DNA of 34,293 nt. Origin: a virus. Numbering within the stretch: the stretch's first letter is position 1; each line of letters opens with the position of its first letter. Both the position numbers and the translations under genes were made by a program. The stretch is from positions 1 to 34,293 of IMG/VR virus record IMGVR_UViG_3300043119_000044; one strand, given 5' to 3'. The notes beneath the pieces were generated by a model. It was not told the origin of the DNA and searched no databases. It saw only the letters and a list, made by a program, of their open reading frames with translations. Positions 1,602-34,159 of this stretch are shown here, one piece after another.

Positions 1602-3626
1602 ATGTTTAGTTCAAACACTACGGGACTGACAACGGGAACCGCGCCAAAGGCAATAGCGTTTGCTGAAGGCGCTGCACCATATATCAGAGTCTTTTCATGG
1701 GGAGCAAGTGGATTTACTGGAATATACTCAAGTCCAGCAACAACTTTGACAAGCACTGGTAACGCTGTTGCATTTAATCCAAATAGTTCTGCAATTGCTG
1801 TGGGCGATCTTGGCTCCCCTTACATTGCAGCTTATCCGTGGACTGCAAGCGGTTTTGGAACCAAATATTCCAACCCCGGAACTTTGCCGGACTATTCTGG
1901 AGAAGGTGTGGCTTTTAGCCCTAATGGGGCGGCCCTTGCAGTAAGTCATTCCTCTGGAACATATATTTCAATATATCCTTGGTCAGCCTCTGGGTTTGGA
2001 ACAAAGTATGCTGATCCGGCAACGCTTCCATCTCAAGCAGCTTATGCTGTTGCCTTCTCTCCGAATGGTAGTTATGTTGCTGTAGCACATCAAAATTCAC
2101 CTCGAGTTACCGCATATCCGTGGTCAGGTTCTGGATTTGGGACTAAATACGCCAATCCAGCAACAATTCCAACAGGAACTGGCCGAGCTATTGCGTTTAG
2201 CCCAAACAGTTCTGAAATTGTTGTTGCTCATGATACTTCACCGTATATCACAGCCTATCCTTGGTCGGCTTCTGGATTTGGAACTAAGTATTCTGATCCG
2301 GCAACGCTTCCAACGGGTAATGGTAAGGGTGTTTCTTTTAGTCCTAACGGAGCTGCCCTTGCAGTCGCGCATACTAGCGTTCCCTATATCACAGCGTATG
2401 CGTGGTCTAATTCCGGCTTTGGGGCCAAATACACAAATCCAGCAACAGAAGCAATCGGTCAAGGTAAATGTTGCGCTTTTAGCCCAGATGGTGGCGCACT
2501 TGCAGTTAACAATCAAGTTTACGCTTGGAGTAGTTCTGGCTTTGGAACCAAGTATTCTAATTCTCCTTTTATCAATGAAAATAATTCACCAAACGGAGTA
2601 GCTTGGTCTACAGTAGGCGATACACCTGCACCTATATATTCGATTGCTGTGGCACACACCATCACGCCATTTATCACCGCCTACCCTTGGAGCGCTTCTG
2701 GTTTTGGTACTAAATATGCTAACCCTGCAACACTTCCAGCAAGCACTGGTCGAGGTGTTTCTTTTAGCCCTAATGGTTCTGCTATAGCTGTGGCTCACTC
2801 TACTACACCCTTTGTTTCGGCTTACCCGTGGAGTGATTCTGGATTCGGGACTAAGTATGCTAATCCATCAACACTACCAACTGGTACTTGTCTAAGTGTA
2901 GCATTTAGCCCTGATAACGCTAATATTGCAGTGGCTCACGGCACAACGCCATTCATTACCGCCTACCCTTGGAGCAGTTCTGGTTTTGGGACTAAATATA
3001 CAAACCCAGCCACACTACCTACTGGGCAGGGTCTAAGTGTTAAATTTAGCCCTAATGGTTCTGCTATTGCTGTAGCTCACGACATAACGCCATTTGTATC
3101 TGCTTACCCTTGGAGTGGCTCTGGTTTTGGCACTAAATACAGTAATCCAGCGACACTCCCGGTAGGTGGAGGTGAGGGTCTTGCTTTTAGTCCCAATAGC
3201 AGTTATGTTGCAGTAGCACAAGCATCAAGTCCATATATTTCAGTTTATCCTTGGAGTGGTTCTGGATTTGGAACCAAGTATTCTGACCCAGCAACACTAC
3301 CAACAGGAACTGGTCAAGATGTGGCGTTCAGCCCTGATAACGCTAATTTGGCGGTATCTCACGCGACATCACCGTTTATCACAGTTTACCCTTGGTCTGG
3401 CTCGGGGTTTGGGACTAAGTATTCTGATCCGGCAACGCTTCCAGCAAGCACTGGTATTGGTGTTTCATTTAGCCCTGATGGTTTAGCAATTGCAGTGGCT
3501 CACGGCACAACGCCATTTATCACCGCCTACCCTTGGAGTGGGTCAGGGTTTGGAGCAAAATATGCCAACCCCGCAACACTTCCAGCAAGCACTGGAAACG
3601 GTGTCGCATTCGGTAAAATTAACTAA
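1602..3626 (+). CDS. Double beta-propeller repeat protein, probable tail tip or receptor-binding protein
   Basis: This 674-residue protein is almost wholly made of WD40/PD40-like repeats. After a 16-residue N-terminus there are 14 repeats: the first is short (38 residues), repeats 2-6 and 9-14 are exactly 47, repeat 7 is 42 and repeat 8 is 53 with a unique insert. A lone final strand, GVAFGKIN, matches the first strand of a repeat, as in the closing strand of beta propellers. Each repeat carries VAFSPNG, AVAH, ITAYPWSGSGFGTKY and NPATLP. The irregular repeats 7/8 at mid-protein suggest two seven-bladed propellers. The ATG has a good AAGGGG site. Position between the tail fibre and tail chaperone suggests a virion surface role, but no enzyme motif or receptor is recognisable. 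A single large propeller is a less likely alternative. Confidence 0.85.
   Translation: MFSSNTTGLTTGTAPKAIAFAEGAAPYIRVFSWGASGFTGIYSSPATTLTSTGNAVAFNPNSSAIAVGDLGSPYIAAYPWTASGFGTKYSNPGTLPDYSGEGVAFSPNGAALAVSHSSGTYISIYPWSASGFGTKYADPATLPSQAAYAVAFSPNGSYVAVAHQNSPRVTAYPWSGSGFGTKYANPATIPTGTGRAIAFSPNSSEIVVAHDTSPYITAYPWSASGFGTKYSDPATLPTGNGKGVSFSPNGAALAVAHTSVPYITAYAWSNSGFGAKYTNPATEAIGQGKCCAFSPDGGALAVNNQVYAWSSSGFGTKYSNSPFINENNSPNGVAWSTVGDTPAPIYSIAVAHTITPFITAYPWSASGFGTKYANPATLPASTGRGVSFSPNGSAIAVAHSTTPFVSAYPWSDSGFGTKYANPSTLPTGTCLSVAFSPDNANIAVAHGTTPFITAYPWSSSGFGTKYTNPATLPTGQGLSVKFSPNGSAIAVAHDITPFVSAYPWSGSGFGTKYSNPATLPVGGGEGLAFSPNSSYVAVAQASSPYISVYPWSGSGFGTKYSDPATLPTGTGQDVAFSPDNANLAVSHATSPFITVYPWSGSGFGTKYSDPATLPASTGIGVSFSPDGLAIAVAHGTTPFITAYPWSGSGFGAKYANPATLPASTGNGVAFGKIN
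1650..3599 (+). repeat. Fourteen tandem repeats of about 141 bp inside the propeller gene
   Basis: The DNA repeats every 141 bp, matching the 47-residue protein period. Copies share blocks encoding SGFGTKY and NPATLP but differ at many synonymous positions, so this is an old, selected protein repeat, not recent satellite expansion. Repeats 1, 7 and 8 differ in length. Confidence 0.9.
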
Positions 3627-10727: not shown

Positions 10728-11111
10728 ATGACATTCGCATTAGGACAACGAAGCAAGGACAGGCTCAATGGAGTCCATCCTGACCTAGTAAAAGTAATCG
10801 AGGAGGCTATCAAAGAGTCTCCTTTGGACTTCTCCGTCACTGAAGGCTTACGCACCAAGGAGCGCCAGAAGGTTCTCTTTGATGCGGGTAAGTCTCAGAC
10901 GATGAACAGCAGACACATCACAGGTAATGCTGTGGACATTGCTGTGATCCGTGAAGGTGAAGTTACATGGGATGCTAAATATTATATTCCGGTTATTGAG
11001 CACATTAAAAAGATAGCTAAGTCTATGGATATTGCTATAGTATCTGGAGGCGATTGGATAACTTTTAAAGATTATCCTCATATTGAGTTACATAGATCGG
11101 CTTATCCATGA
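10728..11111 (+). CDS. Endolysin, M15 family peptidase
   Basis: The 127-residue protein has the zinc-peptidase motifs of the M15 / VanY-like family: [13 protein letters not shown] with His63 and Asp70, and DYPHIEL with His118 as third ligand. The family cuts peptide bonds in peptidoglycan stem peptides (L-Ala-D-Glu or D-Ala-D-Ala). There is no signal peptide, so release depends on the holin genes downstream. A CAGGAG site precedes the ATG. From about base 10975 the DNA becomes AT-rich up to the end of the gene, continuing into the HNH gene that overlaps the stop (ATGA), suggesting co-transfer of this 3' part with the endonuclease. Confidence 0.88.
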
Positions 11112-11572
11112 CTAGCTTAACAAAAGAAGAAAGAGATAAGATCTATAAACAAAATTGGTATCTTAAAAATAAAGATAAAATCTTAGCAAATAAAGATACT
11201 TCTCATGAGGCAAAAGCTAAAAAAGCAGCTTACGATAAAAAGCGTAGAGAACTTAAAGGCCAGCAGCTTCGTGAATATGATAAAGAAAGATCTTCTTTAC
11301 CTAATCGTAAGGCAGAAAAACGTAATTGGTCGCGTAAGCGTAAGATGTCTGTTAAACAAGCCACGCCTAATTGGTTATCTGAGTTAGATGAATTATTTAT
11401 TAAGGAAATCTATTCTTTAGCAGTACTGAGAAGTAACGCAATAGGAATAGAGTATCAAGTAGATCACATTATTCCTTTGCATGGAAAAAATGTATGTGGT
11501 TTGCATGTACCTGATAATCTTCAACTTTTATCAGCTAAGGCAAATCAGCAAAAGAGACATTTGTATGATTGA
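11108..11572 (+). CDS. HNH homing endonuclease inserted in the lysis genes
   Basis: The 154-residue protein has a basic, Lys-rich N-terminal half and a C-terminal HNH domain: [19 protein letters not shown], then [16 protein letters not shown]. These match the family's first His, the GLHVxxNLQ core and the final Asn/His. Such enzymes cut DNA lacking the gene and spread by repair. It overlaps the endolysin stop (ATGA) and the next start. Its DNA is much more AT-rich and A-ending in codon use than its neighbours, a sign of recent arrival. Confidence 0.88.
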
Positions 11573-19999: not shown

Positions 20000-20384
20000 T
20001 CAACCACTCCTCAGGTATTGTCTTATCAGCGAACTGATACCCATTCTTACGACACCACATAGCGTAGGTAGTCTTAGAAGTCTTGCTGATCCGGGCATTA
20101 GAGTTGCTAAACACAAATCTAATGTCCAAGTCTGGGTTATGTCGCTTAACCAAGATATGCTTCTGGCGATCAGGCGCTAGGAAGCGCCCTTTAGTCTCCA
20201 CAATGATACCATTGGCAAGTACAAAGTCAGGTGTGTATACGTGTTGAGAGGCAGGCTTGATGTACTTAAGCTTGACCTTCTCATACGTGTATTCAATACC
20301 TAACTGATCCAGTTGTTCAGCTACTCTTTCTTCGAGTCCACTACGGAATCCGTACTTAATTGCAACTTGCTTGGCGGTTGCCAT
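19989..20384 (-). CDS. Endonuclease I, T7 gp3-like Holliday-junction resolvase
   Basis: The 131-residue protein has RSGLEERVAEQL with an acidic residue near 18-19, TPDF with Asp53, and VETKG with Glu63 and Lys65. Positions and spacing match the T7 endonuclease I catalytic residues Glu20, Asp55, Glu65 and Lys67. It cuts branched DNA and, in T7, helps degrade host DNA. The ATG has AAGGAG five bases upstream although it lies 64 bases inside the exonuclease gene, in another frame, so the long overlap is real. Confidence 0.9.
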   Translation of the reverse strand: MATAKQVAIKYGFRSGLEERVAEQLDQLGIEYTYEKVKLKYIKPASQHVYTPDFVLANGIIVETKGRFLAPDRQKHILVKRHNPDLDIRFVFSNSNARISKTSKTTYAMWCRKNGYQFADKTIPEEWLNER

Positions 20385-21076
20385 AGTTCTCCTTCATAAC
20401 GTCTTAGCCACAAGAGCTGTCCTTGTTCTGTAAAGTATTCCATCGTATGTCCCAATTCTTCATACTTCGTCCACGCACAACGTAAGAGGTCTTCTTTCGT
20501 CTTTGCGTCTTGGAGAGCTTTAGCTGCCTTTTTAGGGCCAATGCCTGCCAAGCACGGAATATTGTCAATCCTATCTCCAGTGAGAAGTTGCGTTGCAAAC
20601 GACTTATACGCTGTGAACTCATCGACATAGTATCTCTCATCTCTCACAGGATTGTAATGCCACCCTTGAAGCTGATCCAAGTCCTTATCCACATGCACTA
20701 TCCAGCACTTGTCTAACAAGTCTGTAGATGCAATGGCTACGGTATCATCAGCTTCTTCACCAACCGTTAGAATAGCACCATGACGCTTGACTAGATGCTC
20801 CCTTAGGGCTTCGTAGTGCTTAGGTCTAAGTACATCCTTACGGTTGCCTTTGTATGGTACTGTCTTGGCAATGTCGTAACGGTAGTTAGATTTACCTGTA
20901 ATCCAAGCTTTGTAATCGTCAGCTTTAAGATTCACATAGATAAAGTCTTCTAACCACTCCGTTAACCGTGCCTTAGCGATGCCAACTGGCTCATCATCCG
21001 TACTGAATCCAATACGATAGACAAGCTAAAGGAAATCAGCGTCCACTAGCGCAATCTTAGGATCATTTGACTTCAT
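20321..21076 (-). pseudogene. 5'-3' exonuclease (T7 gp6 / FEN-like) with in-frame amber codon at codon 17
   Basis: From ATG 21076, with a strong GGAGG site five bases upstream, the frame reads KSNDPKIALVDADFL, then TAG at 21026-21028, then LVYRIGFSTDDEPVG and on without further stops. Relatives usually read DADxLVYR without a break; here CTT-TAG-CTT looks like a 6-bp insertion carrying a stop. Downstream are GEEADDTVAIAS, HVDKDLDQL and the helix-hairpin segment LTGDRIDNIPCLAGIGPKKA, all FEN-family elements binding metal and DNA. In-frame GTG 20935 lacks a ribosome site and would drop the DAD motif. It may be broken, read through, or a sequencing/assembly error. In T7-like phages this enzyme removes primers and degrades host DNA. 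Confidence 0.82.
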
Positions 21077-21569
21077 TTTTACCTCCTTCAAAGTGACGGA
21101 TGCGATGGCAATTCGCGCAGAGAAGAACGCACTTTGATAGTTCTTTCTCAATTTCAGAAAAATTCTTTCGACGCAAGATATTTCCTAAGTTATGTTCTTT
21201 TTCTGTAGGGTCTAAATGATGGAATTCATATACAGGAAGTGGAAACTTTCCACCGCAGTCTTGACATTTACCACCCATATAATCTACAGCTCTTTGTTTC
21301 TTTTCAATACCATCACGAGCAGTCTTTTCATTTCTTTCCTTGACCCATTCAGAATCTTGTTTAGCTTTGCTATAAAACGCCCTAGCTTTGGCGTTAGCGC
21401 ATTCTTTACATGAATTCCCATGTGTAGAAAAAAGTGAAATATCTTTGATAGAGGAACAAGCATTACAGTATTTTTGCCCTTGAGGAACTTCTTTTCCGTC
21501 CACAAGGAACGTGTACTCTAACACTCGTCCTTTGTCATCTCGCTTAGTAATTTTGCGTTCAGCTTTCAT
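21063..21569 (-). CDS. HNH endonuclease between SSB and exonuclease
   Basis: I use ATG 21569, with GGAG upstream; the frame extends to 21629 but those codons overlap a promoter. The 168-residue protein has a cysteine-rich N-terminal part (YCNACSSIKDISLF, then CKECANAKARAFY) and a C-terminal HNH core: GGKCQDCGG, YEFHHLDPTEK, and KCVLLCANCHRIRHFEGG. Paired cysteines suggest structural zinc. It has its own promoter and is AT-rich compared with its neighbours. Its last codons overlap the start of the exonuclease, which is interrupted 17 codons later. Confidence 0.87.
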   Translation of the reverse strand: MKAERKITKRDDKGRVLEYTFLVDGKEVPQGQKYCNACSSIKDISLFSTHGNSCKECANAKARAFYSKAKQDSEWVKERNEKTARDGIEKKQRAVDYMGGKCQDCGGKFPLPVYEFHHLDPTEKEHNLGNILRRKNFSEIEKELSKCVLLCANCHRIRHFEGGKNEVK

Positions 21570-21600: not shown

Positions 21601-21629
21601 ATTATACCACATTGGAGAGAGAATGTCAA
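21601..21629 (-). promoter_or_regulatory. Leftward sigma-70 promoter for the HNH-exonuclease unit
   Basis: On the minus strand TTGACA (21624-21629) and TATAAT (21601-21606) are 17 bases apart, with TGG directly before the -10. It lies eight bases past the SSB stop and 32 bases upstream of the HNH ATG. Confidence 0.85.
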
Positions 21630-21636
21630 GCTTTAT

Positions 21637-22053
21637 TTACAGGATGTCTGAGTCATCATCACCTTCAGCGTCACCGCCGTATACAACCAAGTCTGTCACG
21701 ATGATCTTGCTGATACTTGGAGCAGCACCGAACTTAGCTGACATCTTGTGGCGGTATGAACCAACCAGAGCTGTTACCTTAGTACCGTTACCAATCTTGC
21801 TGATGTCAATATCGTTGCCTTCAGCGTCCATAGGCTCGAACAGGAACTTTGACTTACCAACAATGTAGTTACCCATTGTGTCCTTGTTCTTGATCACAAT
21901 ACCCTGCTCTTTAAGAGCCTCACAAGCCTTGTCAGAGAGCATACCGATTGTACACTCATACTTGGTGTTGTCTTCGTTGAACTTGGTATTGAATTCCTTC
22001 ATCCAGTTAGCCCAGAAGAGTTGACCTGCGATTTTGACTGGTTTGTTATCCAT
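21637..22053 (-). CDS. Single-stranded DNA-binding protein, T7 gp2.5-like
   Basis: The 138-residue protein has a beta-rich core (VKIAGQLFWANWMKEFNTKF, then KFLFEPMDAEGNDIDISKIG and VTALVGSYRHKMSAKFG) and an acidic tail ending DAEGDDDSDIL, the usual partner-binding tail of SSBs. It is shorter than T7 gp2.5 (232 residues) and the fold is assigned from tail, size and neighbourhood, since the sequence similarity I can see is weak. It sits between the tRNA and the recombination nucleases. An AAAGGAA site precedes the ATG. Confidence 0.72.
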   Translation of the reverse strand: MDNKPVKIAGQLFWANWMKEFNTKFNEDNTKYECTIGMLSDKACEALKEQGIVIKNKDTMGNYIVGKSKFLFEPMDAEGNDIDISKIGNGTKVTALVGSYRHKMSAKFGAAPSISKIIVTDLVVYGGDAEGDDDSDIL

Positions 22054-22101: not shown

Positions 22102-22186
22102 TGGTGGGCCTAACCTGACTCGAACAGGTACGCTTTGCAGCGGGAGATTTTAAGTCTCCTGTGTCTACCTATTTCACCATAGGCCC
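22102..22186 (-). tRNA. tRNA-Leu, anticodon UAA, CCA encoded
   Basis: The 85-base gene folds as a class II tRNA: acceptor GGGCCTA pairs with TAGGCCC, an anticodon stem GGAGA/TCTCC holds loop CTTAAAA (anticodon TAA), a variable arm CGC-TGCAAA-GCG follows, and the T arm has TTCGAGT between ACCTG and CAGGT. Discriminator A and CCA are encoded. It reads UUA (and UUG by wobble), codons that are common in these phage genes. Confidence 0.95.
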
Positions 22187-33736: not shown

Positions 33737-34159
33737 GTGGCTCCTAATCAAACAGAAAAAGAAAAGCGTAAAGAGTACGATAAACGGTACTATGAAAAGA
33801 ATAAAGAAAAATGCAAAGAACGGACTAAAAATCACCCTTCATGTGTAGCTGCTCGTGAAAAATATCGCAGTAAACCAGAAGTAAAAGTCAAAATGAGAAA
33901 TCAAAGACTTTTACGAAACTATGGCATAACAAACGAAGATTATGCAGAAATGCTTGAAGAACAGCATTTTTGTTGTGCAGGTTGTGGCTTACATCAAAAC
34001 CAAATTGATAAAAAGCTAAATGTAGACCACAATCATGATACAGGTGAAGTCAGAGGCCTTCTTTGTGGTTCTTGTAATAGGGCTTTAGGTCTTTTAAAAG
34101 ACAGTAAGCAAACATTACTTAATCTTCATGATTATTTGGAGAAATATAATGGCGCTTAA
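33737..34159 (+). CDS. Endonuclease VII-type HNH endonuclease after the portal gene
   Basis: The 140-residue protein starts at GTG with AAAGGA about ten bases upstream. After a Lys/Arg-rich N-terminus it has YGITNEDYAEMLEEQHFCCA, CAGCG, LNVDHNHDTGEVRGLLCGSC and NRALGLLKDS, the recombination endonuclease VII (His-Me finger) pattern with two CxxC zinc pairs. T4 gp49 resolves junctions, but many stand-alone phage copies act as homing enzymes. AT-rich codons and its place in the virion genes favour a mobile origin. Confidence 0.87.
   Translation: MAPNQTEKEKRKEYDKRYYEKNKEKCKERTKNHPSCVAAREKYRSKPEVKVKMRNQRLLRNYGITNEDYAEMLEEQHFCCAGCGLHQNQIDKKLNVDHNHDTGEVRGLLCGSCNRALGLLKDSKQTLLNLHDYLEKYNGA

Follow-up and report, generated by a model that had tools for sequence, protein, structure and literature searches.

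The amber codon in the exonuclease gene

How might a phage express an exonuclease gene whose reading frame is closed by a stop codon within its active-site motif? The gene lies on the minus strand of an IMG/VR virus record of 34,293 bases, analysed here at its full length and referred to as the window (Table 1). Translation from the ATG at 21076 gives MKSNDPKIALVDADFL, then TAG at codon 17 (21028-21026), then LVYRIGF and a frame that stays open up to the gene's own terminator, also a TAG (20321-20323). A profile search placed the body among the phrog_107 exonucleases (E 4e-55), and the gene thus has the profile of that family with a frame interrupted at codon 17. An earlier note on this DNA had likewise read both sides of the stop as one exonuclease with an insertion, and had offered amber readthrough, a population variant, an assembly error or damage by the adjacent HNH enzyme as explanations; the minus-strand orientation and the recurrence of the design in many phages with three stops go beyond it.

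The TAG is held by a 6-bp insertion in the context CTT TAG CTT. Within the window clade, 66 close relatives read DADFLVYR without the insertion and 12 records, that of the window included, carry an identical CTTTAG; the hexamer is therefore a real insertion and the TAG is real. On these alignments the interruption is neither an assembly error nor decay. The stop codons of the window's genes are TAA in 15 cases, TGA in 8 and TAG in 1. The phage tRNA for which the earlier note gave a UAA anticodon is a tRNA-Leu(UAA) at 22102-22186, between the DNA polymerase and putative SSB genes, and several stop-bearing relatives (L257-L259) have a tRNA-Leu(UAA) too.

Table 1. Features of the exonuclease locus, in window positions.
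Feature	Position	Strand	Basis or remark
Exonuclease reading frame, T7 gp6/FEN family, 5'-3'	20321..21076	minus	phrog_107 match and translation
Exonuclease body past the stop, conserved and unbroken	20324..21022	minus	dN/dS comparison
CTT, proposed landing codon (native Leu codon)	21023..21025	minus	CTN in every stop-bearing relative
Near-invariant block	21024..21203	minus	2 variable sites in 180 nt, 11 aligned clade sequences
In-frame TAG stop	21026..21028	minus	same in 11 other IMG/VR contigs of the clade
CTT, proposed take-off codon (Leu16)	21029..21031	minus	CTT before every TAG or TAA, CTG before TGA
HNH endonuclease gene, 168 aa, zinc-ribbon and HNH	21063..21569	minus	phrog_2255, 3e-28; HNH PF01844 weak
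Exonuclease Shine-Dalgarno GAAGGAGG, inside HNH 3' end	21082..21089	minus	near consensus
Stem 3' arm CACTTTG, beside Shine-Dalgarno	21089..21095	minus	constant 32-nt loop
Stem 5' arm CAAAGTG	21130..21136	minus	same stem
Sigma-70 promoter, perfect, TTGACA-17-TATAAT, in HNH cassette	21601..21629	minus	12/12 consensus positions
Upstream gene, putative single-strand DNA-binding protein	21637..22053	minus	position and acidic tail

Recurrence of the Leu-stop-Leu hexamer

The same insertion was found in about 20 distinct exonuclease bodies of diverged phages, always as Leu(CTN)-stop-Leu(CTN), and all three stop codons are in use. CTT TAG CTN occurs outside the window clade in L083, the L084/L085/L087/L089/L090 group, L097, L165, L130, L138, L132, L133, L135 and L140; CTG TGA CTA occurs in L131 and phage T2S1-k141_477764; and CTT TAA CTT occurs in a sequenced phage, Vibrio phage 177E37-1. 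This last gene reads MRALIDADVL(CTT)TAA(CTT)RMEVGAVG, and the sibling phage 1.264.O reads MRALIDADVLRMEVGAVG, the same residues without the hexamer. In two deposited genomes, L118 (PQ867848.1) and L128 (OX241560.1), the exonuclease start had been placed after the in-frame stop, with loss of the catalytic aspartates. An error of sequencing or assembly, or a variant rare in the population, is next to impossible: no support for either was found, and against both stands the same site and logic in many independent contigs and two annotated phage genomes, with three different stops.

L130-L140 had been found with a pattern that imposed the Leu codons, and two scans were hence run with codons left free. 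When the middle codon was free (IDADxL-NNN-Lx[Y]; 2.9 million viral contigs), all eight matches were exonucleases with a stop at that place, and there was no sense codon among them. When the flanking codons were free (IDADx-NNN-TRR-NNN-xY), all six exonuclease matches were Leu-stop-Leu, the other matches being unrelated proteins with TGG or out-of-frame. A further scan, of the DADF version, left both inserted codons open and likewise yielded no exonuclease with a sense-codon hexamer. The cases obtained without imposing Leu codons, namely L118, L128, L165 and the clades of the window, L083, L084, L097 and L131 (by HNH or exonuclease similarity), follow the same codon rule: the codon before the stop is CTT with TAG or TAA and CTG with TGA, and the base after the stop is always C. 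The codon after the stop is never TTR, and the native Leu codon is TTA or TTG in 19 of the 66 intact window-clade genes. A pattern scan of genome contigs gave 11 matches, none an exonuclease, and the viral matches L110-L115, L134, L139 and L220-L244 were set aside as unrelated or out-of-frame coincidences.

A mobile HNH cassette ending at the insertion

Directly upstream of the exonuclease, and overlapping its start by 14 bases, lies an HNH gene. In the window clade it is present at all 12 stop-bearing loci and at none of the 66 intact ones, the pattern of an endonuclease gene found with the insert and absent without it, as for T4 mobA and gene 60. The HNH protein as query retrieved 11 loci, each adjoining a TAG-bearing exonuclease. 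An HNH gene also directly precedes the stop-bearing exonuclease in nearly all cases elsewhere, drawn from two families without detectable similarity. It is of the zinc-ribbon type in most lineages and a NUMOD4-HNH_3 protein in 177E37-1, between which and the window HNH protein no similarity could be detected; the upstream gene of L133 is NUMOD4-like by sequence. L132 is without an upstream HNH gene, and the sequence of L135 ends before the HNH position. The L132 exonuclease (IMGVR_UViG_3300021440_000021, downstream of 10064) combines CTT-TAG-CTT with an in-frame HNH/AP2-like domain in mid-protein. No stop is present in other phages of E. coli and Salmonella whose exonuclease gene is preceded by an HNH gene.

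Alignment of 11 clade members revealed a near-invariant block that extends from 175 bases ahead of the TAG to 4 bases beyond it, flanked by strongly variable sequence in the HNH 5' part and the exonuclease body. Near-identity halts at the insertion: TAGCT closes the block, and from the very next base and codons the phages differ. Such a block is what a recent transfer with its breakpoint at the insertion would leave. The promoter of the unit also occurs in L102, L106 and L107, is absent from L104 and is present in most members examined. In several cassette-free relatives the native exonuclease start overlaps the end of the putative SSB gene, for which a profile search gave no match; the cassette replaces this native start. 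Stop-bearing genes are scattered over the exonuclease-body tree (16 changes, at least five on supported branches), and the unit thus moves horizontally. Together, these comparisons make a mobile HNH cassette with a conserved in-frame stop well supported. The link to the neighbouring HNH gene in the earlier note has therefore held, while random damage by its enzyme is excluded by the same CTT-TAG-CTN in independent contigs and by the TAA version in the sequenced Vibrio phage.

Two endonuclease VII-like genes of the window (33737-34159 and 11108-11572) are possibly further homing-type elements of the same phage. The window also encodes, at 1602-3626, a predicted protein that consists of many copies of a tandem repeat some 40 residues long (PWSxSGFGTKYxNPATLP...).

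Signs that the interrupted gene is used

Past the stop every body remains open, about 20 bodies showing no second disruption, and the median dN/dS of the body is 0.106 in the stop-bearing clade versus 0.111 in intact relatives; the unbroken body of the earlier note is borne out. A single exonuclease copy was present per record (12 records searched, a phrog_107 match in all 12). The strong ribosome site that the note had seen is typical of stop-bearing genes: the median Shine-Dalgarno energy is -13.0 kcal/mol in 21 stop-bearing genes versus -3.9 in 53 intact ones, and the stop and the stronger Shine-Dalgarno go together in about five of five supported independent pairs (p 0.06, the maximum for that number of pairs). 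On the sequences compared, strong initiation is the strongest independent sign that the gene is used. The HNH 3' end also contains a stem (CAAARUG, 32-nt loop, CAYUUUG; 21089-21136) that is kept in the zinc-ribbon HNH stop lineages near the window and shows one compensatory change, G-C to A-U, in L130/L138. This stem, just before the Shine-Dalgarno, probably couples translation of the exonuclease to that of the HNH gene.

Would a purely selfish cassette leave the same record? It could home despite killing an exonuclease that is dispensable or replaced by the host, the bodies being unbroken merely since the insertions are recent. Recent transfer of just this kind is suggested by the near-identity of the DNA that surrounds the stop in the window clade. 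The cassette is less diverged than the body in most lineages, and its dS is below body dS in several pairs; since the cassette moves laterally and has done so recently in several lineages, purifying selection on the body may partly predate the stop, which weakens dN/dS as proof. A dead gene, however, has no need of matched Leu codons, of a stop or of a stronger Shine-Dalgarno, and the intact bodies and single exonuclease per record also speak against this account. L130 and L138, moreover, retain CTT-TAG-CTG and an open body in spite of divergence in both their N-terminal codons and their HNH genes, and are the best case for long persistence of the stop. We consider selfish damage improbable.

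Position of the insertion in the active site

The structure of an intact relative predicted from a broad alignment (pLDDT 91) matches ExoIX, T5 FEN and T4 RNase H. The fold is that of a FEN, and the N-terminal Asp motif, with D8 and D10 invariant, has a fixed spacing. In this model the insertion point falls within helix 1 (residues 10-19), two residues past the invariant D10. Taq polymerase (VDGHHLAYR) has its Tyr-Arg pair at the same distance from the catalytic Asp, and no length change between the catalytic Asp and Tyr14 was found in the intact relatives of alignments A2 and A5. As this spacing is conserved as far as Taq polymerase and the insertion point adjoins D8/D10, two extra residues in helix 1 are, on the predicted model, unlikely to be tolerated. 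Readthrough would put two extra residues there, and a hop from CTN to CTN would put none.

Readthrough, the amber option of the earlier note, would mean that a near-cognate or suppressor tRNA decodes the stop and that the exonuclease works with two more residues (X-Leu) after DADxL. It would suit the maintained frame, the C after every stop, the unbroken bodies and a strong initiation that compensates weak readthrough. Readthrough would also leave the flanks free and allow sense replacements, whereas the flanks are always Leu CTN and the middle is always a stop, whichever of the three it is. One point change would raise output; a functional longer protein would therefore favour a sense codon over the stop, yet such codons are not seen. 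The records searched contained no suppressor tRNA. With the constraint in helix 1 added, readthrough is unlikely. Stop-codon reassignment or global TAG recoding was rejected, with three stops used, normal stops elsewhere and no suppressor tRNA in those records.

A split gene, in which an N-terminal peptide with the catalytic aspartates and a re-initiated C-terminal fragment form the active enzyme, is very improbable. Split phage genes that assemble are known beside homing endonucleases, as for NrdA and gene 43 (PMC2988022), but no start codon is conserved past the stop, where the codon is GTC, GTA, GTT, GTG, TTA, AGC, CTG, ACT, CGT or TAT depending on the lineage, and the downstream starts chosen by the depositors of L118 and L128 drop the catalytic aspartates.

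Two other candidates were dismissed. An RF2-type +1 frameshift is ruled out by a body in frame 0. A group I intron or intein does not fit an insert of 6 nt, and an Rfam search near the gene gave only the tRNA and one sub-threshold chance match.

A proposed model: a stop hop in a protected cassette

A ribosomal hop from CTT over the TAG to the next CTN, which the earlier note had not considered, would restore the native protein exactly. The stop, the matched CTN codons that surround it and the lack of any sense version lead us to prefer such a hop over readthrough, and production of the exonuclease by a +6 stop hop is the best explanation of the codon rule, with a chance of about two in three. 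Under ordinary decoding the hexamer would inactivate the exonuclease. In the proposed mechanism, peptidyl-tRNA-Leu would sit over CUU (or CUG) in the P site next to a slow stop, detach, and re-pair with the CUN six bases on. The +6 hop, in frame, would yield native DADFLVYR, and its product would be recognizable by the junction peptide IALVDADFLVYR in the window or ALIDADVLR in 177E37-1. Very strong initiation may offset a low efficiency of hopping. Landing on CUG or CUA after CUU counts against a hop, as the tRNA would have to re-pair by wobble or be able to read the whole CUN family. No RNA structure downstream of the stop was found to be conserved across lineages, nor was any nascent-peptide signal recognized; a simple stop hop may work without a stimulator. 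A hairpin after the stop in the window clade was rejected as stimulator since it is also present in intact relatives, and the other lineages have none in common.

The insertion, its stop, their recurrence, the HNH association, the horizontal spread, the codon matching and the strong Shine-Dalgarno can all be read in the DNA. To account for them we propose, with a probability of roughly 0.68, a mobile HNH cassette in which a hexamer gives protection and is itself hopped over by ribosomes. The cassette would comprise the HNH gene, its promoter, the Shine-Dalgarno and the first 17 exonuclease codons. Its enzyme, whose nuclease activity we infer, would cleave exonuclease genes that have no cassette, at the active-site motif DAD-x-L | xYR, and the cassette would be copied in as the break is repaired. 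The CTT-TAG hexamer would split the cut site and so keep the cassette safe from its own enzyme.

Counting against the proposal, some exonucleases beside related HNH genes are intact, and the hexamer is therefore not the sole means of coexisting with such a gene. Sixteen exonucleases beside zinc-ribbon HNH genes are without a stop, and most have an altered motif, with DGD or with TTA, TTG, ATA or ATT at the Leu codon. This fits two routes of resistance, by substitution or by hexamer. L158-L164 and L171, relatives of L130/L138 beside related HNH genes, are intact, with DGD or IIT/LIT as altered codons in the active site and a Shine-Dalgarno that is mostly weak, which would suit a second route to immunity.

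We further consider it quite likely that natural in-frame stop hopping is a recurrent phage device, in which unrelated HNH cassettes have repeatedly reached an active-site Leu-stop-Leu hexamer that is left uncut as DNA and erased by the ribosome. If so, it would explain why an essential-type gene can survive although its most conserved codons are the target of a selfish endonuclease. Genes taken to be broken, or given late starts in annotation, would in some cases be intact, as in the two annotated phage genomes whose late exonuclease starts drop the catalytic residues. The old problem of how peptidyl-tRNA leaves a codon at a stop would also become directly testable with minimal natural sites.

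Comparison with known systems

Synthetic constructs in E. coli have demonstrated stop hops between matched codons, of which a 2016 review knew no natural occurrence (PMC5009743); our literature search, whose coverage leaves out many journals, found no report of one. The synthetic cases have the same CTN-stop-CTN layout, in which nine nucleotides are read as one amino acid and the product is two residues shorter than that of readthrough (PMC5009743). They are constructs, whereas the present cases are natural sequences in which a hop is proposed, and would be the first natural in-frame stop hops. CUU adjoining a stop is also the classic slippery codon of RF2 (PMC5009743), and the prfB +1 frameshift site, CUU UGA C, shares the slippery P-site CUU, the A-site stop and the following C. 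However, prfB shifts by +1, while here the body is in frame 0 and the TGA cases use CTG, which is unable to slip likewise.

As an element, the cassette resembles the intronless homing of T4 SegA-G and MobE, with a free-standing gene beside its presumed target and a co-conversion tract that ends near the presumed cut. Immunity in those systems comes from substitutions or an intron, and here apparently from a hexamer in the coding frame. Another close parallel is the T4 gene 60 bypass with MobA, where an HNH homing-type gene likewise lies beside an interrupted essential-type replication gene (PMC5009743, PMC2988022). There, too, the codon next after take-off is a stop, the landing codon matches that of take-off, as around the phage stops described here, and the insert may protect from the endonuclease. 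The gene 60 insert is 50 nt long and that of the window 6 nt, in frame, which is short of a long-gap bypass, and the phage hexamers are without a conserved stem-loop or known nascent-peptide signal. The interrupted T4 gene encodes a topoisomerase; here the target is an exonuclease, with three stops, many lineages and two HNH families. If the hop is real, these cassettes would be a second, far simpler form of the gene 60 bypass cassette, frequent enough for comparative study.
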